Shown: positions 3,816-53,045 of the stretch, in pieces | How the letters are laid out: each line of letters begins with the position of its first letter | Position numbering within the stretch: position 1 is the first letter of the stretch | NCBI GenBank assembly: GCA_949361645.1 | Contig: OX442417.1 | Location: forward strand, 12,895,150-12,959,149 | DNA length: 64,000 bases | Source: Spongilla lacustris | Lineage: Eukaryota; Porifera; Demospongiae; Spongillida; Spongillidae | Direction: 5' to 3' | The notes under the pieces: generated by a model | The model's input: the letters and a program-made list of their open reading frames with translations, nothing else | The model's database searches: none | Told to the model about the DNA's origin: nothing | Translations under genes and position numbers: made by a program

Positions 3816-3819
3816 CCGG

Positions 3820-17842: not shown

Positions 17843-18368
17843 TTGGAACGTTCTATGAGATTTTGATGCTTGTGAATTTTATATATATAGCATCCAATTC
17901 AAAGCGCTATATCTTCAAAAGGGTTTGCACTATTGACTTCCTATTTTCAGCACTTCATACTACACCGTTTCTCTATGCTAAAATATATTTTGGGGTCTTG
18001 CACTTACTCCGTGCCAGGATTGCAACGTCCGATACCACACCGGGTTCAAACCCGACATAACTTTAGGTAGGAGTAATCAAATCGCTTCAAATTCGGTTTG
18101 TAGGTAGAGAGGTCCTATACCTATTGATTTGTTCTGTTCGTTAATTTTCATACAAACCGTTACGGAGAAACAGCTGTGCAAAGTAAGTACACGTTTCCCG
18201 CTCGAATCGCGCCTTTATATGTACACGGAACAGTTTCCATTCTCCGGAGCGCATGAATATTCAAACTATTCCTATAGGGCGTGATAACCACACCTATAAG
18301 GTCACCAAACAAACGGGCGGCTGAATTGTAGTGCTTGTTACGGTTGTTTTTTGGTGTAGATAAACGAT
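17843..18368 (+). repeat. Left terminal unit of element 1
   Basis: It shares with the other terminal units, in order, GACTTCCTATTTTCA, GGGTCTTGCACTTACTCCG, GGTTCAAACCCG, TTCAAATTCGGTTTGTAGG, GATTTGTTCTGTTCG and TTTCCCGCTCGAATCGCGCC. It then reaches GTGTAGATAAACGATATGG, the acceptor and start-codon context of the transposon gene. The outer tip (TTGGAACGTTC...) is only weakly like the canonical TGGGACAGTTTCC. Confidence 0.65.
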
Positions 18369-18560
18369 ATGGTGACGTATAACACGAGTGAAGGCGAGCT
18401 CGTCGAGTCACTGAATCAGTCGGCGGATGAGTTCGAACTGTACGAATACGACGATCGATATTCAAGCTCGATACATTGGACGAGGATGGAGAGATTGAGA
18501 AAAGTAGCGATGGCGGTCGTACCACTGACGTTGGTGGTTGTATTAGTGATAGGGAGTGAG
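18369..18560 (+). pseudogene. Decayed N-terminus of the DUF7869-like protein at left end of element 1
   Basis: The frame starts MVTYNTSEGELVESLNQSADEF. It parallels the intact N-terminus MAKSDDELVVYHSADEFEW at 38.3 kb and sits after the same acceptor (GTGTAG|ATAAACGAT). It soon runs into unrelated hydrophobic codons and then repeats. Either the terminal repeat reaches into the coding region or a second, inverted gene was replaced by satellites. Confidence 0.55.
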
Positions 18561-18569
18561 CAGCCCATG

Positions 18570-21500
18570 AATTACCAAAAGAGCCACCAGCCCCACCCCC
18601 ACATAGCCAGGGGCTAATGGGGCTAGGCCCTTCACTACAAGTTCGCTCAGCAGCCCTGGGGCCAAAGAGGCCATCCCCACACAGCAGAACCACAAGCCCC
18701 CTCACTGCAAGTGCACACTATATACCTTTGGAACCATTATGCCTCATGCTGCAATTTAAATTAATGGCCTCACATTCCAAATAGTGGAGCCATCAAGTGG
18801 AATTAACAGGCCCCATAATTCCAGCAAGGGAGCCACCAGCTAACCTGGCCAATGGAGCTAACATCCACAATGCCAGTGGAGACACCAGCCCTCTCGCAGA
18901 TAGATCATCAGACACCCACACTGCCAGCAGGGATGTGGCCCCCACAATAATGCCAGTGGAGATGCCAGCCCTCAGGCTGCAAATGGAATCAGCATCCCCA
19001 ACAATTTCAGGGGAGCAATGAACTACATGTACCAACAACACGTGATGACCTCACTACCAGATCAATCATTAACCCTCACTCCGCAAGTGGTCTTAACAGG
19101 CTCCACACATTGGGACCAACCCCCCCCCCCCCCCCCCCCCCACTATCTTTCTTTCAATACAAGTTGAGTCAACTGGGATCCCCCACACAGTAGAACCACC
19201 AGCCCCCTCACCGCAAGCTCATGAACAACACCAGTGGAACCTGTAAAGTCTACACTGCAACTGAACTTAATAAATAAAGCCTCACACTGCAGCCAGCAGC
19301 CCATGGAACCATTCTTACAGAACACCCTCAGCTACCCAGGGCCAATGGGGTAGCCTCCACAAAGTCAGTGAAGATGCCACCCCAAGTTGAGTCAGCAGCC
19401 CCCACACAAACCAGGGCCAATAGGGCCAGCCCCACACAGTACAACCACCAGCCCCTCTCTGCTCACTTCAAATAGAGCCACTAGACCCTCTACCAGTACA
19501 CACTGCAAGTCCAGACGGCAGGCCACATGAGTGGAGCCCTCTCACCGATGGAGCCCAGCAAGGAAGTACCAGCTGCCACACAACCAGTGGTTAATCGAGC
19601 CCCCAGAATAATGCCAGTGGAGAAACCAGCCCTCGCACTGCAAGTGGATTCAGCAACCCCAAAAATTTCAGGGGTACATGTAAATGTACTTGAGGGGGAA
19701 AAGAAAACCACACATGCCCTTTTCAAACACTACAACAGAACAAGTGGAACTTTAAGCCCTCATAGTTAATATGTAGCAGTCCCCACAGCCCCCCCCCCCC
19801 CCCCCCCCCCCCCCGCTACTACCTGTCCTACATGTACAATGAAAGAGGGGCCAATCAGCCAATGGGACAGTACAACCACCAACCCTCTTCATTAGTCAGG
19901 GAACATGTACCAAGAACACATGCCGTCACTACAAGTTGAACCTCAATGCAAGTGGACTTAACAGGCCCACCACACACTGGTGCCAGCCCTCCCCCCCCCT
20001 CAGCCCCCCTCTGCTCACTACGTGTCCTTCACTGCAAGTTGCATCAGCTGTCCATGAGCCAATGGGGGCCACTCCGCCTCACTGCAATCACACACTACCT
20101 TTGGAACCAACCATTAACCCCCATACTGCAAGTGAACTCAATACTGCAAAACCTGACCCCCACACTGCCAGCAAGGGAGCACCAGCTGTCACACAACCAG
20201 AGTGTCTATGTGGCCCCCACTTAATGCCAGTGGAGAAGGCAGCCCTCACACTGGAAATGGAGTCAGTAGCCCCAACAATTTCAGGGGACATGTGCATGTA
20301 CGCACATGTACCAATGGAATAACACATGTCCCACCAATGGAACCATGCAGTGGAACTTTTAGCCCTCACAATAAGTGGACTTATTACTTAGCAGCCCCCA
20401 CAACCTGTCTTTCACTGAAAGAGGGGGCTAATGGGACCATCACCACACAGTACAACTACCAGCCTTCCTCATTGCAAGCCAATGGAACCTCTGCTCAAAC
20501 ATTGGAGCTACCAGTCTTCCCACAAATAGAGCTATCATGCCCCCACACAGCTAGCAGAAATGTGGCCCGCACAATAATGCCAATGGAGATGCCAGCCCTC
20601 AGGCTGCAAATGGAATCAGCATCCCCAACAATTTCAGGGGAGCAATGAACTACATGTACCAACAACACGTGATGACCTCACTACCAGATCAATCATTAAC
20701 CCTCACTCCACAAGTGGCCTTAACAGGCTCCACACATTGGGACCAACCCCCCCCCCCCCCCCCCCCCCCCACTATCTTTCTTTCAATACAAGTTGAGTCA
20801 ACTGGGATCCCCCACACAGTAGAACCACCAGCCCCCTCACCGCAAGCTCATGAACAATACCAGTGGAACCTGTAAAGTCTACACTGCAACTGAACTTAAT
20901 AAATAAAGCCTCACACTGCAGCCAGCAGCCCATGGAACCATTCTTACAGAACACCCTCAGCTACCCAGGGCCAATGGGGTAGCCTCCACAAAGTCAGTGA
21001 AGATGCCACCCCAAGTTGAGTCAGCAGCCCCCACACAAACAAGGGCCAATAGGGCCAGCCCCACACAGTACAATCACCAGCCCCTCTCTGCTCACTTCAA
21101 ATAGAGCCACTAGACCCTCTACCAGTACACACTGCAAGTCCAGACGGCAGGCCACATGAGTGGAGCCCTCTCACCGATGGAGCCCAGCAAGGAAGTACCA
21201 GCTGCCACACAACCAGTGGTTAATCGAGCCCCCAGAATAATGCCAGTGGAGAAACCAGCCCTCGCACTGCAAGTGGATTCAGCAACCCCAAAAATTTCAG
21301 GGGTACATGTAAATGTACTTGAGGGGGAAAAGAAAACCACACATGCCCTCTTCAAACACTACAACAGAACAAGTGGAACTTTAAGCCCTCATAGTTAATA
21401 TGTAGCAGTCCCCACAGCCCTCCCCCCTACTAACAATGAAAGAGGGGCCAATCAGCCAATGGGACAGTACAACCACCAACCCTCTTCATTAGTCAGGGGA

Positions 21501-22904
21501 CATATACCATGAACACATGCCGTCACAACCAGTTGAACCTCAATGCAAGTGGACTTAACAGACCCACCACACACTGGTGCCAGCCCTCCCCCCCCCTCAG
21601 CCCCCCTCTGCTCACTACGTGTCCTTCACTGCAAGTTGCGTCAGCTGTCCATGAGCCAATGGGGGCCATAGAACTACCACTCCGCCTCACTGTAATCACA
21701 CACTACCTTTGGAACCAACCATTAACCCCCATACTGCAAGTGAACTCAATACTGCAAAACCTGACCCCCACACGGCCAGCAAGGGAGCACCAGCTGTCAC
21801 ACAACCAGAGTGTCAATGTGGCCCCCACTTAATGCCAGTGGAGAAGGCAGCCCTCACACTGTAAATGGAGTCAGTAGCCCCATGCAACAATTTCAGTGGA
21901 CATGTGCATGTACCAATGGAATCACACATGCCTCCTTCAAACACTACCAGTGGAATGTTTAGCCCTCACAGCAAGTGGACTTATTCCTTAGCAGCCTCCA
22001 CAGCGCCCACCCCCCCCCCCCCCCCCCCACTACCTGTCCTTTACTGAAAGAGGGGGTTAATGGGACCATCCCCACACAGTACAACTACCAGCCTTCCTCA
22101 TTGCAAGCCAATGGAACCTCTGCTCAAACATTGGAGCTACCAGCCTTCTCACAAATAGAGTTATCATACCCCCACACTGCTAGCAGAAATGTTAGCCCCC
22201 ACAATAATGCCAGTGGAGATGCCAGCCATCACACAGCAAATGGAGTCGGCATCCCCACCAATTTTAGGGGAGCCACTAACTACATGTATCGATAACACAT
22301 GCCCTCACTACCAGATGAGCCATTAATCCTCACTCCACAAGTGGACCTAGCAGGTACCACGCACTGAGGCCAGCCCACGCCCCCGCTACCTTTCTATTGC
22401 TGCATATAAGTTGAGTCAGCATTTGAGGGGCCACCACCAGCCCCCTCACCTCAAGCTCGTGAACAATACCAGTGGAACCTGTAAAGTGTTCCCTACAACT
22501 GAACTTAATAGCCTCACATGTCCATGCCCATGCACAACTTATGGAACCATTCCAGAGCCGATGGGGTAGCCTCCACAAAGCCAGTACCCAAGTTGAGTCA
22601 GCAGCCTCCACACAAACAGGAGCCTGTAGGGCCAGCTCCGCACAGTACAACCACCAGCCCCTCTCTGCTCACTTCAAATGGAGCCACTAGGCACACTGCG
22701 AGTCCAGTCAGCCATCAGCTGCCACATAACCAGGCGTCACCCCACAATAATGCCAGCCCTCTGAACTACATGTACCAATGGACCCACACATTCCCTGCTC
22801 CTAACACAACACATGGAACCAGTGGAACCATTAGCCCTCACTGCAATTGGACTTATATTAGCACTGGGGCCAGCTCCTGTCCTTTACAATCAACGGTCCA
22901 GAGC

Positions 22905-22935
<31 letters not shown>

Positions 22936-22990
22936 ACTGCATATGGACTTGGCACCACCGACAGTTTTAGACAAGCCATCATCTACCAGT
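18570..22990. repeat. Degenerate short repeats with a 1,629-bp direct duplication
   Basis: The sequence is built from variants of 'CCAGCCCTCACACTGCAAGTGGA' and 'GGAGCCACCAGC'. On top of this, a long block is duplicated with an offset of exactly 1,629 bp: 18,969 matches 20,598, 19,143 matches 20,772 and 19,490 matches 21,119, nearly identically. C runs of 22-30 occur at 19,120, 19,789, 20,747 and 22,904, with a shorter one at 22,010. The open frames here (60-150 codons) are products of the repeats and are not called genes. Confidence 0.75.
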
Positions 22991-23087
22991 GGAGCTACTA
23001 GCCCCCACACTATGTGTAAAATTACCAGTCCCTATTGGAGCCACTGTATACCTGTTTTCTGTGCACACAATTTTATCTGAGGTGAAG

Positions 23088-23287: not shown

Positions 23288-23534
23288 ACTTAGTGCACAG
23301 TGTGAACAGTAACACTGGTATATGTCACTCCAGTCCTCCCTCTTGTCCACTCCACTCCTCTGTCAGTGTATTACATGTATTATTATCTGCTGGTTAAAGT
23401 TGTTCTTCATTTGTACTTGTACATGTGTATTCATCTGCAAATGAACTTAAAAGGTTCTTTTAAGAACTTCCACATGTGTGTGGAATTTACATGTACTATT
23501 ACAAATGATGTCACCTTTGTTCTGCACTACCTTG

Positions 23535-24095
23535 GTTCAGTTGGTTGACGACAATTGATTTGTCCATGCTACATGTACATATATGTCTCATAATGGTGCA
23601 GAGGTATAAGGTTTTGTTTTCTATCCTCCCATGTGTTTAACATGGCCTAAGAGTAATAAGGATTCCTTGGTTCACATTTGTTTACTTTGATAAGCTAATT
23701 AAGCACTGCATATCTTGATGAGCTACACCCAGTCACTTACCCTGTGGTTGTATTGCACCAGCATCAAAGGAGTTTACATTTTCCTTAGGTTGTTTTTGTT
23801 GCATGAAATTCATTTTTACTACTCATGGCTAGACTATTGTTGAACGCATATTTAAAGAGGGATAGTACAATGTACATGTGTGTAGATAGAATGTATCTGA
23901 TGCTCAATGTAATGATCTAAGGTAGTAGGTAAGGCTGCAATGACTTTAGCTAATGTAACTTAGTGTTTTTGTGATTTTTTTGTATTACATGTACAGTCAT
24001 TTCAAGAGTACTGTCTTCACTATGCATCCATCTTCACTGTATATATGTATATCTGAAGATCATTACTTTAAATCTGAATGGTTTATTATAATAAT
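23535..24095. other. No gene seen
   Basis: AT-rich sequence inside the left inverted repeat, downstream of the 104-codon gene. It holds scattered TACATGTA motifs only. Confidence 0.4.
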
Positions 24096-24671
24096 TCACT
24101 TTGGTGCCATAATCCGTTCACATTCCTGTGTGTCAGGGAAACTTATGTCCCAAATGCGAGGGTCACTGTCTGGTGGTAGATGAAGATGTTTATGCCTGCA
24201 CGTGCTTCTTATATGTTCCCTTGTATCCTTATGGATACCACCAACTCCACATGCAAACCACTGCATGGAATAAGTGTATACAATGTACATGTAACTCAAG
24301 AAATGCACCTTACTTTGTAGTCATGTGTACCACCTTTCGGTTTTCATCTTTTAATATGACCTCGTCTTCCAGATCCATCTCCTCCACTTTGGTCACCTCT
24401 GGGTCACATTCGTCATCACTGTCTGTGACGAGCTCTTCTGGCGATCTGGCCTGCGTGGGACACTCACTATAGGAATACTGTACATAATGGTACAAAACTA
24501 TATCAGTGACCTTTGGATGTACATGTACATGTAAAGGTGTTGATTCCAGTACAGTTGTCTTAGTGACCAACATGCAGGATATCATGTGTATGCCAATTAA
24601 ATGCTGTTTTTGTTACTTACCGACAAAACAGCTGTTGCTTCCTTAGGCTTTGCACCGTGTATTGTTTCCAT
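24096..24671 (-). CDS. Putative 104-residue acidic protein, three exons
   Basis: Exons on the minus strand: 24621-24671 (starts METIHGAKPKEATAVLS), 24314-24477 and 24096-24195. Donors are GTAAGT and GTAAGG, acceptors TACAG and TGCAG. Phases (0, then 2) agree and the sum is 315 nt with a terminal TGA. The middle exon is strongly acidic (VTDSDDECDPE, EEMDLEDEV) and the last contains SDPRIWDISFPDTQEC. No domain recognised; it could be a short nuclear or adaptor-like protein. It is divergent from the gene at 25.2 kb, with about 540 bp between start codons, suggesting a shared promoter. It lies inside element 1. The support is splice consistency only. Confidence 0.5.
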
Positions 24672-25213
24672 GTTTTGCCTATGCAAGAAACAAAATCCTA
24701 TACATTTATTAAATATTAGTAAACTAAACTGAGCAATAATTGGGCTATTTTATCCTCCAGCTCTCCGTTTCTGCTCTTCTCTTTGAGTAGATCTTTCTTG
24801 AGGGCTAACGTTCCGATTGATGATCCAAGAATACATGGGCATACACAATGTAAATCAACTTACTCTCGTTTTCATGTTCTGCCTGCTCAATTGCTATCAA
24901 AGGTGCAGTTTAACTTCATTTAGTGTAGCGAACACACACATAACGGACACAGCTAGCTAGCGCGCTTTAGAAATTAGTTCTTACGTCGGCGATAATTTCC
25001 GGATGCTCATAGGCCTATATAAATTCAGATTGCTGTCACTCTCTGCATGTAACTACCGTACATGTAATTGCCAGCCGGTAATACTTCAAATGGGAGCTTC
25101 GAATTCATCGTAAGACGTGCATGCAGTTTGTCTAAATTCAATTCGTATTAAACATGTACCTTTTATGTACATGTACATTTAGGAGTCAAACTCCTACCCC
25201 CTCTTCAAATGCA

Positions 25214-26536
25214 ATGGAACGATCGAATCAGAGCGATGCGACCGATCAAAGGTAATTTTGAAAAGTGTTTGATTTCCACACGCGTACGCTATTGCGATAG
25301 TAGAGCCAGGCATAGTTTTGCCCAGGCGTTGCGCTGTCATGCAGTTACAATAATGCCGGTATTCAGTTGCGATGCTGCAAAGAGTATATGTGCATCTTTT
25401 ACTACTAGTCGGTCTCGAGCGCGACAACGGCGTGGATGGGGAAGCCGCCGACGTCAAAGAGTAAGCGCACTTTCAATACCACGTACGCAATATAGAATGC
25501 ATTGTTAATTTCGTGTTATTATCGACAGAGATTTAGGCGAAATCGGCGAACCGAGCACCCCTCCCAAGTTGAGCATGCAAACCAATAGCTTCATTATAAT
25601 ATAGGCTCTTTTCCTACTATGATAACAGCATGTACAATGTACATGTACTTCCTCCCATGGCCCAGCCAGCGGTCCAAGCTCCTCTCTACCAGCGGTCCAA
25701 GCTACTCCCCAGCCTGTGGTCCAAGCTATATGTACATGTACTACCCAGCCTGCAGTCCAAGCTACATGTACATGTACTACCCAGCCTGTAGTCCAAGCTA
25801 CTACCCAGCCTGCAGTCCAAGCTACATGTACATGTACTACCCAGCCTGCAGTCCAAGCTACATGTACATGTACTACCCAGCCTGCAGTCCAAGCTACATG
25901 TACATGTACTACCCAGCCTGCAGTCCAAGCTACATGTACATGTACTACCCAGCCTGTGGTCCAAGCTACTCCCTTGCCACTGGTCCAGGCTCCTCCCCTG
26001 CCGTCAAGCCTACCTCCTCCCCTGCCGTCAAGCCTACCTCCTCCCCTGCCGTCAGGCCTACCTCCTCCCCTGCCGTCAGGCCTACCTCCTCCCCTGCCGT
26101 CAAGCCTACCTCCTCCCCTGCCGTCAAGCCTACCTCCTCCCCTGCCGTCAAGCCTACCTCCTCCCCTGCTTGCAGGCCTACCTCTTCCCCTGCCGTCAGG
26201 CCTACCTCCTCCCCTGCCGTCAGGCCTACATGTACCTTCTTTCCTACCACAAAGTAATACATGTACACAACATCCTCAATTTATGTTTCTAACGTGAATT
26301 TGTTGCCAGCAGGTAACTATCAGCCACCACCATGGTGGACATATCCACCATGGTGGCTCTGTCAGCCCCAGAGTGCTCAGTCATGGAGATGCCAGACTGA
26401 ATGGGAACAACCATGGAGTGAGCCTTTGACTCAGCCACAAAGGGGTGAGCAGCCAAGGAGAGGTTGGCGAAGGAGGAGGGGACCCAGAAGGTTGGATCAG
26501 CTCCAGAACATTGAAGACACACCCTTAAATACATAG
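25214..26536 (+). CDS. Putative 325-residue Arg/Pro/Gln-rich protein, five exons
   Basis: Exons 25214-25251, 25409-25460, 25529-25567, 25629-26253 and 26313-26536 have GT-AG borders, agreeing phases (2, 0, 0, 1) and total 978 nt ending in TAG. The protein starts MERSNQSDATDQ, then a basic block (SRSRARQRRGWGSRRRQR, RFRRNRR). The middle has 12-residue repeats of the TQPAVQATCTCT type and PPLPSGL/PPLPSSL repeats. The end is Trp/Gln/Pro-rich (NYQPPPWWTYPPWW) and basic (GWRRRRGPRRLDQL). The arginine blocks suggest nucleic-acid binding (inference). The third donor (GTTGAG) is weak; without it the frame stops at a TAG at about 25,587. A possibly analogous Ser/Pro-rich frame lies at 48.4-49.0 kb in element 2. 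Confidence 0.42.
25728..26235. repeat. Coding-type tandem repeats, 36 bp then 24 bp
   Basis: 25,728-25,963 has about six units of 36 bp, each containing CCAGCCTGCAGTCCAAGCTA plus ACATGTACATGT; one unit lacks the ACATGTACATGT insert. 25,985-26,230 has about ten units of 24 bp (CTCCCCTGCCGTCAAGCCTAC with TCC). Both periods are multiples of three, so any frame through them stays open, which weakens open-frame evidence here. Confidence 0.8.
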
Positions 26537-27068
26537 CAGTGACAAAAACATCTGCACATCTACATGTACTATTGATCCAGCCATTTCATATCTTATTGCT
26601 ATAATATCACCCAGCAATAGCAATTTTGACAATTCTTTTCCATGGAGGATAAGTACATGTACACATAAGCTGGGAAAATTCATCAGAGTCACTTTTAAAC
26701 ATCCAACAATGTATGTACATGGTCCAATATTATAGTATTCATAGAACTTAGGTTTCTCTACATCTATCCACAACAACCTCCCCCTATTGTTATCATCCAA
26801 AATTCATACCATCTCATGCATTTAAAAAAAACAACAATGCATGTCCTACATGTAGGTAATCCTAAGCATCCTATACACTTTTATACAGTGGTCTACAAAC
26901 ACATTACCCAAATCCATTTACATGTATACATTCTGTTCATTTGTAGTGCAGAATAAAGGTGACATCATTTGTAATTGTAAAATGCCACACAACTATGTGG
27001 CGAGTTCTTAGAAGAACCTTTTTTACAGAATCAACATGTACATGTATACCATAAAACAAAAACACCAG

Positions 27069-35535: not shown

Positions 35536-35661
35536 TGTACATGTGTGTGGTGACACCAATTTTTGAACATGGTGATGATGTAACAGATATAGAAACACAG
35601 AGCACCTCACCATGTGTGATGAACATGGATCCAGGAGGAGGAGGTCCCTTTAGATTGCTAG
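35536..35661. other. Junction between satellite and gene 3' end
   Basis: Short unique sequence after the last 58-bp unit. It may hold the 3' untranslated region of the minus-strand gene; no AATAAA signal was seen. Confidence 0.4.
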
Positions 35662-38933: not shown

Positions 38934-38953
38934 TATAATTATAATTATATATA

Positions 38954-39778: not shown

Positions 39779-39788
39779 TATATATATA

Positions 39789-40610: not shown

Positions 40611-40628
40611 TATATATATATAATTATA

Positions 40629-41203: not shown

Positions 41204-41287
41204 ATGGCGCCGTCAACTGAAGACAAGGTCATAAGAGTTTCAATCGGCGGACGTGAAGTTCGAGCGGTGCGAATACGACGATCGTGA
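41204..41287 (+). pseudogene. Decayed gene start at left end of element 2
   Basis: The ATG at 41,204 starts MAPSTEDKV. By nucleotide alignment, CGAATACGACGATCG and the preceding CGGCGGA match the remnant at the left end of element 1. The frame has shifted relative to SADEFE and stops within 28 codons, just before the 48-bp array. Confidence 0.5.
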
Positions 41288-41325
41288 GAAAGGTTACTAG
41301 ATTTATGCTAGTACAGTGACGACGG

Positions 41326-44300
41326 TGGTCCCATTTACACCCTGCACTTGTGTCTGTTGTGGGATCAAATCCATGGTCCATTTACATCCTCTGTTGTGGG
41401 ATCAAATCCATGATCCATTTACATCGTATCCTGGGTTGTGGGATCAAATCTATGGTCCATTTACATCCTCTGTTGTGGGATCAAATCCATGGTCCATTTA
41501 TATGTACAACCTGTACTTGGGGTCAAATCCATGGTCCCATTTACACCCTGTACTTGTGTCTGTTTAGTGTCAAATGCATGGTCCCATTTACACACTGTAG
41601 GTGTATCTATTGTGGGGTCAAATCCATGGTCCTGTACTTGTGTCTGTTGTGGGGTCAAATGCATGATCACATTTACACACTGTACTTGAGTCTGTTTAGG
41701 CTCAAATCTATGGTCCCATTTACACCCTGTACTTGTGTCAATTGTGGGGTCAAATCCATGCTCCCATTTACACCCTGTACTTGAGTATGCTGTGGGGTCA
41801 AATCCATGGTTCCTTTTACACCCTGTACTTGTGTCTGTTGTGGGGTCAAATCCATAGTCCCATTTACACCCTGTACTTGAGTCTGTTTTAGGGTCAAATC
41901 TATGGTTCCATTTACACCCTGTACTTGAGTCTGTTTAGCGTCAATTCATTGGTCCCATTTACACCCAGTACTTTTGTCTGTTGCGGAGTCAAATCCATGG
42001 TCCCATTTAGACCCTGTACCTGTGATCAAATCCATGGTCACATTTACACCCTGTACTTGTGTCTGTTGTGGGTTCAAATCCGTGGTCCGATTTACACCCT
42101 GTACTTGTGATCAAATCCATTGTCCGATTTACACCCTGTACTTGTGATCAAATCCATGGTCCGATTTACACCCTGTACGTGTGATCAAATCCTTGGTCCA
42201 TTTACACACTGTACTTGTGTCTGTTGTGAGATCTAATCCATGGTCCCATTTAACCCTGTACTTCTGTCTGTTGTGGGGTCAAATGCATGGTCCCATTTAC
42301 ACCCTGTACTTGTGTCTATTGTGGGGTCAAATCCATGGTCCCATTTACACCCTGTACTTGAGTATGCTGTGGGGTCAAATCCATGGTTCCTTTTACACCC
42401 TGTACTTGTGTCTGTTGTGGGGTCAAACTCATACTCCCATTTAGACCTGTACTTTTGTCTGTTGTGGGGTCAAATCCATGGTCTGATTTACACCCTGTAC
42501 TTGTGATGAAATCCATGGTCCCATTTACACCCTGTACTTGTTGTGTCTATTGTGGGATATACATGTTGTATGTGTCTGTTGCGGAGTCAAATCCATGGTC
42601 CCATTTACACCCTGTACCTGTGATCAAATCCATGGTCACATTTACACCCTGTACTGGTGTCTTTTGTGGGTTCAAATCTGTGGTCCGATTTACACCCTGT
42701 ACTTGTGATCAAATCCATGGTCCGATTTACACCCTGTACTTGTGATCAAATCCATGGTCCGATTTACACCCTGTACGTGTGATCAAATCCTTGGTCCCAT
42801 TTACACACTGTACTTGTGTCTGTTGTGAGATCTAATCCATGCTCCCATTTAACCCTGTACTTCTGTCTGTTGTGGGGTCAAATGCATGGTCCCATTTACA
42901 CCCTGTACTTGTGTCTATTATGGGGTCAAACTCATACTCCCATTTAGACCTGTACTTTTGTCTGTTGTGGGGTCAAATCCATTGTCAGATTTACACCCTG
43001 TACTTGTGATGAAATCCATGGTCCCATTTACACCCTGTACTTGTGTCTGTTGTGGGGTCAAATCCATGGTCCCATTTACACCCTGTACTTGTTGTGTCTA
43101 TTGTGGGATATACATGTTGTATGTGTCTGTTGTGGGATCAAATCCATGGTCCCATTTACACCCTGTACTTGTGTCTGTTGTGGGGTCAAATCCATGGTCC
43201 CATTAACACCCTGTACTTGAGTCTGTTTATGGTCAAATCTATGGTCCCATTTATACCTGTACTTGTGTCTGTTGTGGGGTAAATCCATGATCCCATTTAC
43301 ACCCTGTACTTGAGTATGCTGTGGGGTCAAATCCATGGTCTCATTTACACCCTGTACTTGTGATGAAATCCATGGTCCCATTTACACCCTTTACTTTGTC
43401 TGTTGTGGGTCAAGCTCATGCTCCCATTTACACCCTGTACTTGAGTCTGTTTTAGGGTCAAACCTATGGTCCCATTTACACCCTGTACTTGAGTCTGTTT
43501 TAGGGTCAAACCTATGGTCCCATTTACACCCTGTACTTGAGTTTATTTAGGGTCAATTCATTGGTTCCATTTACACCCTGTACTTTTGATCAAATCCATG
43601 GTCCCATTTGCACTCTGTATTTGTGTCTGTTGTGGGGTAAATTCATTGGTCCCATTTACACCCTGTACTTGTGTCTGTTGTGGGTCAAACTCATGCTCCC
43701 ATTTAAACCCTGTACTTGAGTCTGTTTTAAGATCAAATCCATGGTCCCATTTACACCCTGTACTTGTGTATGCTGTGGGGTCAAATCCATGGTTCCATTT
43801 ACACCCTGTACTTAAATATGTTTTAGGGTCAAAACTATGGTCCCATTTACACCCTTTACGTGTGTCTGTTGTGGGGTCAAATTCATGGTCCCTTTTACAC
43901 CTTGTTCTTGTGTCTGTTGTGGGGTCAGAACCATGGTTCCATTTACATCCTGTACTTGTGATCAAATCCATGGTCTCATTTACACACTGTACTTGTGATC
44001 AAATTCATGGTCCGATTTACACCTTGTACTTGTGATCAAATCCATGGTCCCATTTATACCCAGTCTGTACTTATGATCAAATCCATGGTCCCATTTACAC
44101 CCTGTATTTGTGTATGTTGTGGGGTCAAATGCTTGGTCCCATTTACACCCTTGTACTTTTGTCTGTTGTGGGGTCAAACTCATGCTCGCATTTACACCTG
44201 TACTTTTGTCTGTTGTGGGGTTAATCCATGGTCTGATTTACACCTTGTACTTGTGATCAAATCCATGGTCCCATCCTGTACTTGAGTACTCGTGTCTGTT

Positions 44301-44690
44301 GTGGGGTCAAACTCATGCTCCATTTACACCTTGTACTTTTGTCTGTTCTGGGGTCAAATCCATGGTCTAATTTACACCCTGTACTTGTAATCAAATATAT
44401 GGTCCCATTTACACCCTGTACTTGTGTCTGTTGTGGGTCAAATCCATGGTCTGATTTACACCCCTTTTACTTGTGATCAAATCCATGGTCCCATTTACAC
44501 CCTGTACTTTTGTCTGTTGTGGGGTCAAATCCTTGGTGCGATTTACACCCTGTACTTGTGTTCAAATCCATGATCCCATTTACACCCTGTGCTTGTGTCT
44601 GTTGTGGGGCCAAATGAATGATCCCCGCATTTACACTCTGTATGTGTGTCTGTTGTGTGGTCAATGCATTGGTCCCATTTACACCCTGTA
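41326..44690. repeat. 48-bp satellite array
   Basis: The unit is about 48 bp: GGGGTCAAATCCATGGTCCC, then ATTTACACCCTGTACTTG and TGTCTGTTGT. A 37-bp variant lacks TGTCTGTTGTGG (GATCAAATCC...). A block of about 600 bp is repeated (for example GAGATCTAATCCATG at about 42,228 and 42,826). Divergence between units is higher than in the 58-bp array. The open frames here are not genes. Confidence 0.9.
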
Positions 44691-44897
44691 TTGGCCGAGG
44701 GTCGAATCAGGTCAGCTCCCTCACTTCATGCGGACAGAACCATTAATGCAAGTTAACTTAATAGCCCCACACTACATGTCCAGTTAGCACCAGTAGACTG
44801 CCAGCAAGGGAGCAACCAGGTACTAAAAAATCCTACAGGGTCATTGGGGGCTCCCACATTAATGCAGCTCTCACACTGGGCATGCCGCATTCGCCAC

Positions 44898-46745
44898 CAT
44901 GTCCCTATCTCCCACTACCTATCCTCCTCTACTGCAAGTTGTATCCGAGGCCCAGGCCATTCCTTACTCTATAGCACTCTCAGTCTCCACACAACCAGCC
45001 CTCCCACCCACCCACCCACCCACCCACCCATAAACACCCCTCTTACATATGGTGTAATCAGACTGCCAACAGGCCGGAGTGCTGCCAGCTGCCACATTAC
45101 CAGGATTGAATGGGGTCATCACAAAAGTAGACCCCAGCATGTGGAGTGGAACATTGAACTGGAGCCGGCCCCAAACACTGGGGCCAGCCACAATGGCCCC
45201 CCTATCCTAGCCTCACACAGTACTAACACCAGCTCCTCACTGCAAATGCAAATGAAGCTACTACCTGTGAAACCATTAACCCCCACACTACAAGAGGACT
45301 TAATGGTAGGGGAACCATCAACTACAAGTGGAGCTACCAGCTTGCAATGGACAAATGGAACCACCATGGACTGAAGCAGCCTCCATTTGTAGAGTGTACA
45401 TACATGCCTACGTTTGTCTTTTCTCACATTTTGTGTTGTAGATCTGAACTACTGTAGACATGTACTTGTACATGTACAGAGTAAATTTTATCTGGTGTGG
45501 ATGCATTTAGTGGTGAATATAGTTACCTGCCCTATCGGTACTGATTGCGGTGGGTCTGCACCCGTGGTTGGTTTATATGGACAACAGAGGGCGTTTTGCC
45601 CTACTGGGAACTACTGTACTGTACGAGTACGTAAGTGCCGTTTTGAATGTCACATAAATTGCATGCACAGTCACAGCTACAATGTGGCACGATGAAGACA
45701 TCAGAATTCACTACCACACAAGTGGAGTTAGCCATCAACTACGTACTTGCGTATACCTATATATAGCTAGCCCTAGGCTGTTGTATATCTGCTAAAATGT
45801 ATGTGCTAGTGTATATAGCGGCCGTGGGGCACAGGTGAAACTGGGTTACACTGGTAATGTCTAGATCTGTTGACATCTCTGACAGTGTAGGGTCTGCTAA
45901 CTTCACTTGTGTGGTCATGAATTCTGATGTCTTCATCGTGCCACATTGTAGCTGTGACTGTGCGTGCAATTTATGTGACATTCAAAACGGCACTTAGATC
46001 TACGTGTTTTGCTACTTGCGTGCAGTAGTTCCCAGTAGGGCAAAACGCCCTCTGTTGTCTATATAAACCAACCACGGGTGCAGACCCACCGCAATCAGTA
46101 CCGATATCGATAGGGCAGGTAACCATATTCACCACTAACAGCATCCACACTGATAAAATTTTACTCTGTACAAGTACATGTCTACAGTACATGTAGTTCA
46201 GATCTACAACACAAAATGTGTGAAGAGACAAACGTAGGCACGTATGTACACTCTACAAATGGAGGCTGCTTCAGTGGTGGTATTCCATTTGTCCAATGCG
46301 AGCTGGTAGCTCCACTTGTAGTTGATGGTTCCCCTACCATTAAGTCCTCTTGTAGTGTGCGGGTTAATGGTTTCACAGGTAGTGGCTTCATATGCATTTG
46401 CAGTGAGGAGCTGGTGTTAGTACTGTGTGGGGCTCGGATACGGGGCCATTGTGGCTGGCCCCAGTGTTTGGGGCCGGCTCCAGTTCAATGTTCCACTCCA
46501 CATGCTGGGGTCTACTTTTGTGATGACCCCATTCAATCCTGGTAATGTGGCAGCTGGCAGCTCTCCGGCCTGTTGGCAGTCTGATTACACCATATGTACG
46601 AGGGGTGTTTAGGGGTGGGTGGGTGGGAGGGCTGGTTGTGTGGAGACTGAGAGTGCTATTGAGTAGGGGATGGCCTGGGCCTCAGATACAACTTGCAGTA
46701 AAGAATACAAATTGCAGTAAAGGAGGATAGGTAGTGGGAAATAGG
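44898..46745. repeat. Large palindrome, ~840-bp arms
   Basis: Left arm 44,898-45,735 and right arm about 45,893-46,745 are inverted copies with a spacer of about 155 bp. Examples: CACTACCTATCCTCCTC at 44,920 against GAGGATAGGTAGTG at 46,723, and GGGCGTTTTGCCCTACTGGGAAC at 45,588 against its inverse at 46,029. Identity is high with small indels. The outer arms contain the same short-repeat style (CCAGCAAGGGAGC) as 18.6-22.9 kb in element 1. Confidence 0.85.
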
Positions 46746-46755
46746 GCCATGGGGG

Positions 46756-48350
46756 CTTAACGACACATACATAAGGTGTAAGGAGATGACTCTTAACCAC
46801 ACAGACGTAAGGTGTACAGGTGACCCCTTAACGACACATACATAAGGTGTACAGAGATGACTCTTAACCACACAGACGTACGGTGTACAGGTGACCCCTT
46901 AACGACACATACATAAGGTATACAGAGATGACTCTTAACCACACAGATGTAAGGTGCACAGGTGACTCTTTAACGACACATACAGAGATGAATCTTAACC
47001 ACACAAACGTAAGGTGTACAGGTGACCCCTTAACGACACATACATAAGGTATACCAAGATGACACAGATGTAAGGTGTACAGGTGACCCCTTAACGACAC
47101 ATACATAAGGTGTACAGAGATGTCTCTTAACGACAGAGACGTACGGTGTACAGGTGACCCCTTAACGACACATACATAAGGTATACAGAGATGACTCTTA
47201 ACGACAGAGACGTACAGTGTACAGGTGACCCCTTAACGACACATACATAAGGTATACAGAGATGACTCTTAACCACACAGATGTAAGGTGTACAGGTGAC
47301 CCCTTAACGACATATACATAAGGTGTACAGAGATGACTCTTAACCACACAGATGTAAGGTGCACAGGTGACTCTTTAACGACACATACAGAGATGAATCT
47401 TAACCACACAGACGTACGGTGTACAGGTGACCCCTTAACGACACATACATAAGGTGTACAGAGATGACTCTTAACCACACAGACGTACGGTGTACAGGTG
47501 ACCCCTTAATGACACATACATAAGGCGTACAGAGATGACTCTTAACCACACAGACATAAGGTGTACAGGTGACCCCCTAACGACACATACATAAGGTATA
47601 TAGAGATGACTCTTAACCACACAGATGTAAGGTGTACAGGTGACCCCTTAACGACACATACATAAGGTGTACAGAGATGACTCTTAACCACACAGATGTA
47701 AGGTGCACAGGTGACTCTTTAACGACACATACAGAGATGAATCTTAACCACACAGACGTACGGTGTACAGGTGACCCCTTAACGACACATACATAAGGTG
47801 TACAGAGATGACTCTTAACCACACAGACGTACGGTGTACAGGTGACCCCTTAATGACACATACATAAGGCGTACAGAGATGACTCTTAACCACACAGACG
47901 TAAGGTGTACAGGTGACCCCCTAACGACACATACATAAGGTATATAGAGATGACTCTTAACCACACAGATGTAAGGTGTACAGTTGACCCCTTAACGACA
48001 CATACATAAGGTGTACAGAGATGTCTCTTAATGACAGAGACGTACGGTGTACAGGCGACCCCCCTAACGACACATACATAACGTATACAGAGATGACTCT
48101 TAACGACAGAGACGTACGATGTACAGGTGACCCCTTAACAGCACATACATAAGGTATACCGAGATGACTCTTAACCACACAGATGTAAGGTGTACAGGTG
48201 ACCCCTTAACGACACATACATAAGGTGTACAGAGATGACTCTTAACCACACAGACGTAAGGTGTACAGGTGACCCCTTAACGACACATACATAAGGTGTA
48301 CAGAGATGACCCTTAATGACACAGAAGTATGATATATACTGCAGAGGTGA
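46756..48350. repeat. 72-bp (2 x 36) satellite array
   Basis: Each 72-bp unit is two related 36-mers: CTTAACGACACATACATAAG + GTGTACAGAGATGACT, and CTTAACCACACAGACGTAAG + GTGTACAGGTGACCCC. A 344-bp higher-order period is visible (47,269-47,478 repeats at 47,613-47,822 nearly unchanged). The open frames here are not genes. Confidence 0.9.
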
Positions 48351-48389
48351 CCTTAAATTACATAAAAAAGCATGAATTTCACAATATGG

Positions 48390-48445
48390 TTCATTTGTCA
48401 TGAGCCATGGTCTCACTTGTTGTGAGTATACAGTGCGGATCCTTA
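48390..48445 (-). pseudogene. Duplicated 3' tip of the DUF7869-like gene
   Basis: ATTTGTCATGAGCCATGGTCTC and GTGAGTATACAGTGCGGAT match the last codons and stop region at 49,795-49,845. A short piece of the gene end therefore sits about 1.4 kb away in the same orientation, on the other side of the Ser/Pro-rich frame. Confidence 0.6.
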
Positions 48446-48973
48446 GATACAAGTACATCTACAAGTAGTACATGCAGATCTCGGTCACCATCACAATCAT
48501 CCAGTTCACCACATACCTCACATCATTCAACACGTGTGCATTCCTCTTCACTCAATCGCTCAAATCATACAACACGTTCCTATTCACCTGGATCACCCCG
48601 CCACTCAACTCATCCAATACGTTCTTCACCATGTCACTCTACTTAGCAAACACGTTCAAGTCATTCAACACATCCATCTTCATGTTTTTCCTCACCATGC
48701 TCATCCCATTCCTCATACTCATACTTGCATCATTCCTATCAGCCAGAGCCACTGCCTGTAATGGTGAGGCCACCAGTAGCTGCAATAGTCCAGTTTCCAC
48801 CAAGGATTCAGCTCCAGTCACCATCACAGTCATGGTCCCAGGCACCATTACCATGGACAGCTGGACCTATGCCAGACACACTTGGGCAGGACAAGGACCA
48901 TTCTGTTACCATTAATATGCGTACTAGAACTCTTTCAAAACATTTACATGTTCATGTGCTTGTACCCATGTGA
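48407..48973 (+). pseudogene. Ser/Pro-rich frame with one stop, element 2 cargo
   Basis: One reading frame runs from 48,407 to 48,973 with a single TAG at 48,644. The first part is SR/SH-rich (CRSRSPSQSSSSPHTSHH and similar repeats of TCATTCAACACG), the second Pro/Gln/Trp-rich (QPEPLPVMVRPPVAA, QSWSQAPLPW). By position, strand and composition it resembles the end of the Arg/Pro/Gln-rich gene of element 1, also followed by a GAGTTCTTAAAAGAACT hairpin. Residue-level homology is not demonstrated. Confidence 0.3.
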
Positions 48974-49109
48974 TCACTTCTTTGTTATGATAATCAAGCT
49001 TCGCTAAGGTGTAACTTCTTGTGTAAATGTAACGTTTGTCAGAATGTTACCTCAATAGATTGTGAGGACAAGCTGACAAACGAGTTCTTAAAAGAACTTT
49101 TGATTCAAC

Positions 49110-49440
49110 ATGATACACAGTTGCACTGTACATAGATTATCTGAGCAACAACCGACTTTTCTTCACGAGTGCACCAGAGCTACATGTACATGTATATCTG
49201 AGCAACAATCGACTTTTAACTTCACGGGTGCACCAGAGTTATCAAGCAACAAACGACTTTTCTTCACGAGTGCACCAGAGCTACATGTACATGTATATCT
49301 GAGCAACAATCGACTTTTAACTTCACGGGTGCACCAGAGTTATCACTTTGCAACAACCAACGTTTCTTCACGAGTGCACCAGAGCTACATGTACATGTAC
49401 ATGTATATCTGAGCAACAATCGACTTCTTCATGGGTGCAC
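49110..49440. repeat. About 103-bp tandem repeat, three copies
   Basis: TCTTCACGAGTGCACCAGAG followed by CTACATGTACATG recurs at about 49,159, 49,261 and 49,365. Each period has two halves (CTGAGCAACAA(C/T)CGACTTTT and AACTTCACGGGTGCACCAG). Confidence 0.8.
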
Positions 49441-49800
49441 CAAACATCTCTCTAGTAATCTGAGCAATAACTAACTTATATTTGCAGAGGTGCATGCATC
49501 ATGTTCTGTGTCTATTCAGGCAACTAAATTGCTAAGGTAACTCACAACCTGAGAGCTTCTCTAGCTTTAAGTGCTCTTAATGCTGGTATTAGACCTCCAT
49601 TGATGTCAAGGAGTATGAACGTCCAGTTGCTGTTGTTGAACATCAGTTGGATCTATCTCCAAGATGTCTGGGTTCCTTGGGTAATTGTAGGACTTGCCAG
49701 GTACATGTAGCTTTGGGTGAAGGAAAATGGCCTCACTTCTACAGATGAAATTGAAATGGTAATAATACCATGAAATGCATCTCACAATATGGATCATTTG
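49441..49800. other. No gene seen
   Basis: Spacer between the ~103-bp repeats and the gene 3' end; nothing recognisable beyond AT-rich sequence. Confidence 0.4.
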
Positions 49801-52473
49801 TCATGAGCCATGGTCTCTCTTCTTGTGAGTATACAGTGCGGATGAGCTGCCGTACTTATTGCCACACACAAAACAGGAAAATGGCCTGTCAATTTCAGAT
49901 TTTTTCCTACGCCTGCGCTTGGATGGATCCTGGCTTCCTACGTCAACACTGGCACTGTCCACCTTAGTGGCACCACTGTGTTCATCACCTGGAACAGCAG
50001 GCTGCTTGTGAGTCATCTTTTTGTGCAGGGACAGGGCCGAGCCACTGCCATACTTATTGCCACATACAGTGCACTGGTAGGCAAGGATCAGTTCAGACCT
50101 GGGTCTGCGTTTCCTCCTGCCAGAAACACAGCTATTGGCTTCGTCTTGCACTTCACTGTATGTGTCTTCTGCAGACTCATGACCCTCAACAGTACATGTA
50201 GGTGAGTGAGGAAAGGCAGTTGAAGGTCCAGGTTGGTCGTTTTCTGGTAGGGATGAAGCGTTGCCACATGGATAGGAAGAGGTGGCCTCTGAGTTTGGTG
50301 GAGGTTTTGGACATACTTTGTCCCTTTTTTGGGGGTCACGAACATATTCCCTCACCCTTTCGTACAGGTACAGTGACCGCATCAGGGACAAACCACTGGG
50401 GTTAATAACAGGTGGCATCGATTGGCTCTGATAAGCCTCCTGTATGTCCTTTATGGCCACTCCAGCCCTCAGCATGCTCATCTCGGTGGGGTTTGTGTCC
50501 GATGGTAACATTTTCATTTTCATGACACCAGGGTGTTCTCGGTCAAACTCAAATGTGTGGTAGCGGCCTAGGCCAGCCAAAGGAGTAAACCACTGGCCCA
50601 AGAAGGTGTAGTACTGCCAGTTCTGGTACAGCTGTGGCACACAAGTGACATTCTGGCCACAGTGTCGGACACAGTCAGCTAGGTCATCCATGTCATCTAC
50701 ATGGTCCTGCCGTCGGTAGTACTTCTTGAACAGGCCAAAGTAGGAATCGGGTCTGAACTTTGTGTGCCCAGGTAGCATGAAGTTCAGCTGTATGGCGTTA
50801 TGTTGCCCAGTGATCACCCGCCAGGCCAGGTACCACATCATGGTGGTGTTCTTGTTCTGGCCCACACAGTTGTCGGCCTGAAGTGTTACACGCCTCTCTC
50901 CCAGTCCATGTAGGTGGAAGAATGCGTGCACTAGGCTGACCACCACCACAGCACCCTTGCCGGCCTGCTCAGCCTCGTCAATTAAGAAGAACACCTGGCG
51001 GCACAGCGGCTCACAACACACACCAAACACCTGGACCTTGCGAGGTGTCCTGAAATAAAAAGTGCCCCTTTGTTGTGAGCTGTAGGGCAGTGACACCTGC
51101 TGGCAGTAGTCAAAGGAGTACTGCATCTGCATGTCCAGGTGGGCGTGTGAGGTGAAGGGAGCCATCAGAGCCCTGGATTCCAAGTGACCCAGGATCTGGT
51201 CACGTTCCTTCTGTCCCTTACTTCCCCATTCCTTCTCAGCCTCCTCAATGTTTGCATTGTAGGCGTCACGGAATGCCTTGGCCTTAATGAGGTGTTGGTT
51301 GTATTTGTCATTTATTGTTTTGCGCTGCTCATCAGAAAGGCTGTGCCTCAAAGTGACCAACATCTGGTCACACTTGTCACACAGATCACTGCGTGCAGGT
51401 TGGATCTTGATGTTGAAGCAGTACCTGCGCCAGAGTCTAATAAATGACACATACATCACCACACGTGCAGCTGGAGGTGTAGGAGGAGCCGGAGGAACGT
51501 TGAGCAAGGTGTACTGCCGCTTCAGCCGAGTGGTCAATTTGTAAGGGCAAGGTTGCTGTGGTGCTGGTGTGGTCTTTGATAGGGATTCCATGGCCTTGCA
51601 ATACTTGGCGTACACAGACTTTAGTGTTTTGCCACTCTCCAGAACGTAGTCTCTGATCGTCCCTTGCAATCGACCAGGGTCAGGGAGGGCATTTGTGGCA
51701 GCATAATTCTCAATAAATCTGACCACCATCCTTTTGTCCTCGCGAGAGAGGGCATTGTGAGGAGCCCTGCCACAGTTGCCATGGGGATGGGGCTCAACAT
51801 CAGAGTCAGAGCACACCTGCTGCTGCCAACGCTTCAATGTACGGTAACTTGTGCCAATGACGGCACAGAAAGCATCCCTGCAGACAGGACTGGACCAGTC
51901 AAGGCGATATTGGAATGTACATGTATTTCGAGAACCAGATTTGTTCCGAGTCACAGCAAGCATTCCATAAACAACTGCCTTTCTGGTTTTCTTGTCCAAT
52001 CTGGATAATGTGAGTGCTCGTCTTTTGGGCAAGTCACCGTACTTCAATAAGCAGCCGTCTTTGCAGCACCCTCCTTTAGTGAGGTAGGCATTCAGCATGC
52101 GACGTGGACGACACTGTCCCCGTGCTATTCTAGCTGGTACACCACCTGGGCCCTTGCTGACATCATCACCATCGCCATCACAGTCGCTTCCGCTATCACC
52201 ATCACAGTCGCTTCCATCACAGTCCTTATCGCTATCACTTCCACCATCATCACTTCCACCATCATCACTTTCACCATCACCGTCATCTCCGTCACTTTCA
52301 CCATCATCGTTGATTCCATCTTCACAGACATCGCTATAAATGCCGTCGGAATCACCACTTCTATATTCACCGTCGCCATTGGCACCACCCTCCTCATCTA
52401 CGTCCAAATTATCGTACCATTCGAACTCGTCCGCTGAATGATACACGACGAGCTCGTCGTCAGTTGTCGCCAT
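49801..52473 (-). CDS. DUF7869-like protein with two C2H2 fingers, element 2 copy (890 aa)
   Basis: Very similar along its length to the 891-residue copy. The open frame extends 12 codons upstream to 52,509, but those codons lie in the intron acceptor (TTCTGTGTAG), so I start at MATTDDELVV (52,473). It keeps LDMQMQYSFDYCQQV, LQADNCVGQNKN, GHTKFRPDSYFGLFK, the CDKC knuckle and both fingers (CTVCGNKYGSGSALSLH and CFVCGNKYGSSSALYTH). Differences are a rearranged acidic repeat, a few small indels (AHLDM for ALHLDM, loss of HDWNA near the tryptophan segment) and a divergent linker before the fingers. Two long intact frames in degenerate surroundings suggest selection or recent activity. Probable transposase, by position between inverted ends (inference). 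Confidence 0.8.
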   Translation of the reverse strand: MATTDDELVVYHSADEFEWYDNLDVDEEGGANGDGEYRSGDSDGIYSDVCEDGINDDGESDGDDGDGESDDGGSDDGGSDSDKDCDGSDCDGDSGSDCDGDGDDVSKGPGGVPARIARGQCRPRRMLNAYLTKGGCCKDGCLLKYGDLPKRRALTLSRLDKKTRKAVVYGMLAVTRNKSGSRNTCTFQYRLDWSSPVCRDAFCAVIGTSYRTLKRWQQQVCSDSDVEPHPHGNCGRAPHNALSREDKRMVVRFIENYAATNALPDPGRLQGTIRDYVLESGKTLKSVYAKYCKAMESLSKTTPAPQQPCPYKLTTRLKRQYTLLNVPPAPPTPPAARVVMYVSFIRLWRRYCFNIKIQPARSDLCDKCDQMLVTLRHSLSDEQRKTINDKYNQHLIKAKAFRDAYNANIEEAEKEWGSKGQKERDQILGHLESRALMAPFTSHAHLDMQMQYSFDYCQQVSLPYSSQQRGTFYFRTPRKVQVFGVCCEPLCRQVFFLIDEAEQAGKGAVVVVSLVHAFFHLHGLGERRVTLQADNCVGQNKNTTMMWYLAWRVITGQHNAIQLNFMLPGHTKFRPDSYFGLFKKYYRRQDHVDDMDDLADCVRHCGQNVTCVPQLYQNWQYYTFLGQWFTPLAGLGRYHTFEFDREHPGVMKMKMLPSDTNPTEMSMLRAGVAIKDIQEAYQSQSMPPVINPSGLSLMRSLYLYERVREYVRDPQKRDKVCPKPPPNSEATSSYPCGNASSLPENDQPGPSTAFPHSPTCTVEGHESAEDTYSEVQDEANSCVSGRRKRRPRSELILAYQCTVCGNKYGSGSALSLHKKMTHKQPAVPGDEHSGATKVDSASVDVGSQDPSKRRRRKKSEIDRPFSCFVCGNKYGSSSALYTHKKRDHGS

Positions 52474-53045
52474 ATCGTTTAAATCTACACAGAAGATAAC
52501 GAATAACAACTGTAAATACTACTTATACATTATCTCTGCTAATAGGCAAGACCTCACCGATAAATGCTTTGTAGGTGTGGCTAGGTTAACAAAGTCCCAA
52601 CCCACAGGAAATAGTTGAATATTCATGTACTTCGGTGAATGGAAACGGTTCGCGCACATACAACGGTGCGATTCGAGCGGGAAACTTGTACCAACTTTGC
52701 GCCGCTGTATCTCAGTAACGGATGACATAAAAATTAACGAACAGAACAAATCAATAGGTATAGGACCCCTCTACCTACAAACGGAATTTGAAGCGATTTT
52801 ATTACTCCTACAGAAAGTTATGGCGGGTTTGAACCCGGTGGGGTATCGAACGTTGCAGTACTGATACGGAGCAAGTGCAAGACTCCAAAATGTATTTTAC
52901 GATAGACAAATGCTATAGTATGAAGTGTTGAAAATAAGAAGTTGATACCTTTAACCGTTCGGAAGATATAGCGATTCAAACGAGAAGCATTTTTATAACA
53001 TTTTATATATATAAACGAAGGGCCATTTTCGTGGAAACTGTCCCA
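52474..53045 (-). repeat. Right terminal unit and promoter/leader of element 2
   Basis: Reading toward the gene: TGGGACAGTTTCCACG, the shared block, ATTTATCG|GTGAGG donor at about 52,556, acceptor TTCTGTGTAG at about 52,487, then ATTTAAACGATATGG. The inverted counterpart is 40,629-41,203. Confidence 0.75.

Follow-up and report, generated by a model that had tools for sequence, protein, structure and literature searches.

MuTAnT elements of Medicago and SaTar elements of guayule and rice are described, in the excerpts of the papers on which we draw throughout, as targeting TA or other microsatellites and as having related non-autonomous elements (PMC4486113, PMC5907723), and SaTars are reported in un-nested end-to-end arrays (PMC5907723). 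According to similar excerpts, Mutator-like elements (MULEs) have target site duplications (TSDs) of 8-11 bp (PMC5907723, PMC3942029) and a C/D(2)H motif 11-19 aa past the second catalytic acid (PMC3942029), the CMC/Transib/Plavaka group (CMCT) has C(2)C and H(3-4)H between the second and the last acid (PMC12730594), and the PIF/Harbinger-ISL2EU group (PHIS) has TSDs of 0-4 bp (PMC10045372). IS481EU, ISL2EU and IS3EU are listed as eukaryotic superfamilies with counterparts among bacterial insertion sequences (IS; PMC10045372), and foldback, Galileo and Tetris-type elements have been linked with satellite DNA (PMC4079207). Here we compare with these systems a stretch of 64,000 nucleotides from the sponge Spongilla lacustris (the window; C3:12895150-12959149, where C3 is contig OX442417.1), in which an earlier note made from the letters alone had seen giant, satellite-filled transposons encoding a protein with DUF7869 and C2H2 fingers. 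We find that this protein is very probably the transposase of a cut-and-paste, DDE-type DNA transposon family with an RNase H fold, a reading already put forward in that note and now supported by a predicted fold, an acidic triad, paired ends, 2-bp duplications and one empty site. For DUF7869 itself the best reading is that it forms the core of a group of DDE-type transposases that spans bacteria and sponges.

The reference copy is element 1 of what we call family A. Its parts, with terminal inverted repeats abbreviated as TIRs, are as follows (window positions, and the strand where there is one).

40629..53045: element 1, complete family-A transposon of 12.4 kb, with no N gap and a single intact gene
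40627..40628: TA duplication to the left of element 1, in a TA-rich run where other even lengths fit too
53046..53047: TA duplication to the right of element 1, in a TA run, from the reading of the flank
40629..41105, plus strand: left TIR, 90.2% identical to 53045-52571 over 478 columns
52571..53045, minus strand: right TIR, from the pairwise alignment with the left TIR
49801..52473, minus strand: the DUF7869/C2H2 gene, putative transposase, 890 aa from its ATG
41203..41284, plus strand: relic of the 5′ end of the gene in the left arm (MAPSTEDKV...), 41173-41272 aligning with 52505-52412 at 73.5%
41353..44690: satellite cargo, arrays with periods of about 37, 48, 85 and 95 bp, from a repeat scan
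44893..46756: internal inverted repeat, 44893-45732 against 46756-45896 at 88%
46756..48329: satellite cargo, array with a period of 71 bp
49137..49426: satellite cargo, short array with a period of 101 bp

The TIRs of element 1 begin TGGGACAGTTTCC and both ends carry the identical tip TGGGACAGTTTCCACGAAAATGGCCCTTCG, so that the 12.4-kb element with exact tips proposed before stands, with an inverted unit of 90% identity. The gene is open over 49,801-52,509 (902 codons from a TTG, the first ATG being at 52,473) and, together with a second frame at 35,662-38,337, accounts for the two minus-strand genes of about 890 codons that had been noticed, both intact and both over the DUF7869 cut-off.

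The genome searched comprises 248.6 Mb in 51 contigs. On scoring the best 50 of 1373 candidates, the element-1 gene was found in 30 places at 98-100% identity, of which 17 are open from the same start (886-893 aa) and the remainder truncated or broken. The left terminal unit (query 40629-41203, best 40 of 3220 candidates scored) has at least 42 full-length copies at 97-100% identity, the window's own included. A check on convergent end pairs around the gene, which the earlier note had called for, placed a convergent left unit on the correct side and within 30 kb in 25 of the 30 family-A genes (again with the window's), against a chance expectation of 0.08; two of the remaining five have a nearby left unit in the wrong orientation and three have none. 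In 28 of the 30 loci a gene-side tip is found no more than 1.5 kb from the gene, mostly at about 0.5 kb. Family-A spans range from 11.7 to 26.8 kb, the gene-side arm being taken as 540 bp and scaffold gaps inside being possible. At two further places, called left-left here, both ends are left units, at distances of 10.1 and 10.9 kb and with no gene match in between.

The TSD sample consists of 25 elements with both tips read (23 gene-bearing and the 2 left-left ones) and leaves out C6:4661788, where no gene-side tip was detected, and two single left ends. A 2-bp match between the flanks is present in 25 of these 25 family-A elements with the correct tip, or in 24 as scripted, a neighbour's tip having been taken once; shuffled pairings give 15.7 ± 1.3 matches and none of 500 shuffles reaches 24. 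The duplications are TA in 19 cases, AT in 4, and AA and TT in 1 each. Lengths of 1 and 3 bp give fewer matches than chance. At 4 bp the flanks agree in 18 of the 25, above all 500 shuffles (mean 14.5), and at 6, 8 and 10 bp in 10, 6 and 7. It may be noted that even lengths above 2 also fit because most flanks are TA runs. We assign 2 bp because seven sites accept nothing longer, namely the AA site (C9:10010910), the TT site (C9:6463394), four AT sites and one TA site (C4:4892631).

This bears on whether the elements could be Mutator/foldback MULEs of the kind that targets TA microsatellites (MuTAnT, SaTar). TA targeting and end-to-end arrays are shared with these, as far as the excerpts describe them (PMC4486113, PMC5907723), and so are long TIRs and foldback forms. 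The identity is contradicted by the length of the TSD, 2 bp as against 8-11 bp, the six elements that fit 8 bp all having flanks in TA runs. In addition, the C/D(2)H motif was not found after D535 of the protein (see below) in the five sequences in which we looked for it, and no MULE model is among the Pfam matches, which makes this explanation highly improbable.

The joined flanks of the family-A element C4:8692461 match C19:4277500-4277768 end to end at 97%, giving an empty site. The same host repeat is filled at the same TA run by a family-A element (C4:8691925-8708055), by a left-left element (C4:967251-977337) and, at C15:5470311-5471130, by an insert of about 0.82 kb that is foldback-sized and known from its size only. 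Empty sites had been expected in other haplotypes; one was found, and it belongs to a single set of paralogous host-repeat sites within one assembly. Paired ends could also arise by segmental duplication or by ectopic recombination between dispersed repeats, which is plausible between long TIRs and might be seen in the 5 of 30 genes without a correctly placed partner end. A host repeat with one empty copy and three copies filled at one and the same TA run contradicts such an origin, and with the 2-bp duplications and the 38 identical family-B ends at scattered places (see below) also against it we find it scarcely credible.

DUF7869 is listed by Pfam (PF25273, curated cut-off of 26 bits) as a domain of unknown function. 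Both window proteins are above this cut-off (62.1 and 58.0 bits; E of 7e-17 and 1e-15), all 20 members of alignment A2, which was used for the profile scans, match it, and both window proteins have C-terminal C2H2 matches below their own cut-offs. Structure prediction gives the protein an RNase H-like core, as the comparison of folds suggested in the earlier note was meant to establish. Of the two catalytic residues named there, D535 holds (54 of 54 sequences) and D448 does not, being D in 22 of the 54; the invariant acids are D456, D535 and D577, and a CxxC upstream of the first acid is invariant as well. The PF25273 match in protein P0002 (481-659) covers strands 2-5 and the helix of the third acid, with D456 outside.

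In the structural comparison by VIA-align, retroviral integrases and Mos1 are the tied top matches and the longest alignments come from Mos1. With Foldseek, neither the whole protein nor the core had a PDB match at E <= 0.001, and likewise there was none in BFVD; the best row for the core is a chain of a type V-K CRISPR-associated transposon (E 0.005), and other weak rows are NurA, MutS, Argonaute and Hermes, with CTCF for the whole protein. No sequence relative in PDB was found at E <= 10. Profile scans beyond DUF7869 and C2H2 gave weak sub-cut-off matches only: one of the 20 members, P0034, matches DDE_Tnp_ISAZ013 across the second and third acids (Pfam, E 0.14), and in NCBIfam one of the 20 matches an ISNCY transposase model (E 0.039).

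These matches raise the question of whether DUF7869 is a very divergent branch of ITm (IS630-Tc1-mariner/Zator-ISAzo13), moving in the mariner-like cut-and-paste manner with a 2-bp duplication. The 2-bp and mostly TA duplications, the presence of Mos1 among the top structural matches with the longest alignments, the weak ISAzo13 match of P0034, and the D-N at the second acid, which recalls the mariner pattern, are all in line with it. Against it, 6 of the 25 duplications are AT, AA or TT, retroviral integrases tie with Mos1, and no Tc1/mariner model of Pfam or NCBIfam was matched among the proteins scanned, so that we hold the ITm placement to be unlikely. As for the other groups, CMCT was rejected on the absence of a CxxC between D535 and D577 in five sequences, with D577 taken as the last acid, and PHIS is compatible in TSD length and gave no profile match in the proteins scanned.

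Among 36 protein matches, four carry an NCBI name, all from the freshwater sponge Ephydatia muelleri with 53-81% identity over the matched part, and eight EukProt rows with 'Em' gene ids are presumably from the same species. A search with the 626-aa relative P0034 returned 464 proteins at E <= 0.01. The 120 of these that were listed are mostly of about 630 aa on contigs of 2-5 kb, and for the non-sponge rows among the 120 the precomputed Pfam annotation is DUF7869 alone. A scan of bacterial and archaeal genomes found 13 loci, including one in the isolate Desulfocicer vacuolatum DSM 3385 (148-kb contig), and the bacterial relatives are without zinc fingers. A complete or almost complete gene is present in nine of these loci. 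Seven of the nine have flanking inverted repeats of 36-61 bp with TGG tips, 2.0-2.7 kb apart (L087, L088, L089 with 43/43 positions, L090, L093, L095, and L098 with 36/36, TGGGACTGGCGC; the L098 gene is split over two frames), while at L092 and L094 no flanking inverted repeats were found. L091, L096, L097 and L099 hold only partial genes. L097, from a Cycloclasticus symbiont of a poecilosclerid sponge, may be a meeting place of bacterial and sponge elements or a contamination.

Because the neighbours of L089, L092 and L093 include genes for a sigma-54 activator, rve, GAF and TIR-domain proteins, a histidine kinase and CheR, these three lie in bacterial DNA; some of the remaining loci are short contigs of metagenome bins. 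On reading the TIR from TGG, the 2-bp flanks match in three of the seven TIR-bearing loci (L088 AT, L090 AA, L098 TT) and not at L087, L089, L093 or L095. At L089 (2208-2738, D. vacuolatum) the left TIR ends an IS3-type rve (integrase) frame, the continuation of which was not found on the right side; for this reason we claim no bacterial empty site, and the arrangement suggests a deletion beside the element.

The family is rare in bacteria. It is present in 7 of 389 genomes of Desulfocicer's class, in 2 of 42 of Thiomargarita's order and in 2 of 369 (one over the cut-off) of the class of a Legionellales metagenome-assembled genome, with 0 of 14 controls each time. These counts are biased upward because each search was centred on a known-positive genome; at least 5 of the 7 positives in Desulfocicer's class were already known (G001, G002, G005 and the genomes that contain L091 and L095), as were the two in the Thiomargarita order. 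No relative was confirmed in viral contigs, and none was found in plasmids searched with P0160. A tree of 46 proteins has a 100/100 branch with the eight sponge-type rows on one side and the bacterial and metagenome rows interleaved on the other, and since the root is a drawing aid only, the tree gives no direction of transfer. More distant DUF7869 proteins also occur in Desulfocicer's class (L108 280-2256, a 659-codon frame with a GHTHF variant; L106 181-2373, a 731-codon frame), with no TIR-like pair found within the short stretches examined.

The bacterial elements also bear on whether the DUF7869 protein is a passenger in elements that another transposase moves in trans. Large elements are able to carry passenger genes, and movement is here deduced from sequence alone. 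Yet the seven bacterial elements are just 2.0-2.7 kb long with the gene filling most of the space between the TIRs, the protein has a predicted RNase H-like fold whose acidic triad is invariant, and the gene-side tip stays close to the gene in family A, all of which make a passenger role very doubtful. Taken together, the compact bacterial TIR elements, the RNase H-like core with its triad, and the paired ends, TSDs and empty site of the sponge lead us to take DUF7869, with high probability, as part of a transposase catalytic domain, whose activity would be that of a DDE enzyme.

The family-B and family-C members in the window lie to the left of element 1.

17844..23087, plus strand: left half of a family-C element, tip TGGAACGTTCTATG, 98.2% identical to positions 16-5245 of the joined loci L085+L086
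23088..23287: scaffold gap, a run of 200 N
23288..27061: further family-B interior, another B copy being 99.8% identical over 25555-23288, down to the gap
27062..35535: 58-bp satellite array in the family-B element, 8.4 kb here as against 4.2 kb at C1:23219028
35662..38337, minus strand: family-B gene, putative transposase, 891 aa, 89% DNA identity to the element-1 gene
38453..38933, minus strand: right TIR of the family-B element, from the terminal-unit search

A single 21.1-kb element with a diverged tip had been proposed for 17,843-38,933. This is not sustained, as the 200-N gap joins half of a family-C element to a family-B element. The family-C match to the window spans 5.27 kb at 98.2%, and a gap-free copy (C2:7906529-7916628) is a 10.1-kb palindrome with 4.3-kb inverted arms 96.6% identical. 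No DUF7869 match is present in the family-C element, and its ends pair convergently 8.4-15.2 kb apart in at least 11 pairs (22 of the 43 full-length ends listed). The left arms of families A and C each contain a diverged relic of the 5′ end of the gene, and both therefore seem to be derived from the upstream end of the gene.

The family-B gene has at least 20 equally scoring places, and 38 places share the gene-side end of B (query 38400-38932, 533 bp) at 100% identity, the window being counted in both cases; such identity over 533 bp suggests very recent activity. The whole of 38,933-23,288 in the window is matched by the B copy at C1:23219028, except that the array differs in length. Beyond 23,288 this copy continues as an inverted satellite copy and then enters a 200-N gap of its own, so that in both places the left end of B falls in satellite that the assembly does not resolve. 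The sequence beyond the gap of that copy was rejected as the common left end of B, its sole full-length match being itself. The satellite filling described in the earlier note is confirmed by the arrays, and tolerance of a variable cargo is borne out by the two lengths of the 58-bp array and, as spans only, by the range of family A.

Three observations concern family B. A small unrelated inverted repeat, tip TGGGAAAGTTCATGAC, lies next to a B copy and within a TA run (L084, about 4990-5240), and the query that holds it has one full-length match, itself. Minisatellites of 36 and 24 bp are present in the family-B interior of the window (25703-26229), within a low-complexity plus-strand frame of 212 aa. 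Two back-to-back B pairs (C3:837351-838424 and C3:883725-884798), 8 bp apart each, have 46 kb between them; their inner members form a convergent pair 46 kb apart, which may be a duplication or a very large composite.

The non-autonomous foldbacks with related tips, also seen before, are three in the window.

38954..39778: foldback FB1, 825 bp, tip TGGGAAAGTTTACGAG
39789..40610: foldback FB2, 822 bp, with family-A tips, also L001 661-1482
53060..53883: copy of FB1, 824 bp, 100% complementary to 38946-39738 over 793 bp, also L009 4757-5580

In the window, A, B and foldback elements lie end to end within TA runs, and 14 bp separate an A from a C element at C2:7906514/7906529. The TSD test on eight complete foldbacks (fetched loci and window) is uninformative because all eight lie in TA runs; shuffled pairings fit equally, and only the even length tells anything. 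Elsewhere in the window, a minus-strand frame at 5860-6516 has a sub-cut-off match to a Tf2-1-like SH3 domain (E 0.0017) and is perhaps a fragment of a retroelement.

From the above we infer the following course of transposition. Predicted N-terminal helices that look like a helix-turn-helix, together with the C2H2 fingers, would bind the long TIRs. The D456/D535/D577 core would make the cuts at TGGGAC...GTCCCA and insert the element, with a stagger of 2 bp, into an AT-rich site, in most cases in a TA-rich run. The whole content between the tips would move along, and because of this satellite-bearing A and B, gene-less C elements of about 10 kb and 0.8-kb foldbacks could all be mobilised through their related tips, the moved elements accumulating next to each other in shared TA runs. 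The bacterial relatives have the core enzyme alone between short TIRs; the sponge versions also have zinc fingers and an acidic N-terminus, together with satellites and long arms. Compared with the earlier note, the 2-bp duplications, the targeting of TA microsatellites, the compact TIR-bearing bacterial relatives and the relic of the gene 5′ end are new.

Literature searches with the domain names and motif strings of DUF7869 found no paper, and the matches listed by other literature searches hold no description of DUF7869 elements, which may be filed otherwise in Repbase, Dfam or ISfinder, outside this comparison. Somewhat more tentatively than the transposase assignment, we consider it probable that DUF7869 marks an unrecognised DDE superfamily common to giant animal transposons and to compact bacterial IS with TGG tips and a length of about 2.0-2.7 kb. 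In sponges this superfamily would have gained zinc fingers, come to insert into TA microsatellites and become able to move 10 kb or more of satellite, and it may be both a mobile source of satellite arrays and large palindromes and a means of distributing them. The absent profile matches and the non-TA duplications would favour a superfamily of its own, and the TSD length and the similarity to Mos1 a distant arm of ITm. If true, a domain of unknown function found in bacteria and animals alike would receive a function, and a further bacterial-animal link would stand beside those known between IS and eukaryotic superfamilies. With a living system one might then follow satellite arrays and palindromes as they grow and spread, and learn how a transposase selects TA microsatellites, and the DUF7869 protein would be a candidate insertion enzyme tolerant of long cargo.

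Set against the known systems, ITm and Zator/ISAzo13 have in common with the DUF7869 elements the RNase H-fold DDE/D core, the 2-bp mostly TA duplication (ITm), the likeness to Mos1 and one weak ISAzo13 match. The DUF7869 elements differ from ITm in giving no significant profile match, in duplications beyond TA, in the invariant CxxC upstream of the first acid and in the C2H2 tail, and mariner enzymes are much smaller. Foldback, Galileo and Tetris-type elements share the long TIRs, the foldback forms and the link with satellites, as far as the excerpts on them describe these; the transposase here is a different one, Galileo being placed there in the P superfamily. The duplications of Galileo are longer than 2 bp. 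MuTAnT and SaTar, in the parts of their descriptions used, are alike in microsatellite targeting and end-to-end stacking, but they have a mudrA-type transposase or MULE TIRs and duplications of 8-11 bp outside microsatellites, where the present elements have DUF7869 and 2 bp. The connection between bacteria and eukaryotes is of the same kind as that of IS481EU, ISL2EU and IS3EU in the excerpt on these superfamilies, with other transposase families and other TSD lengths.

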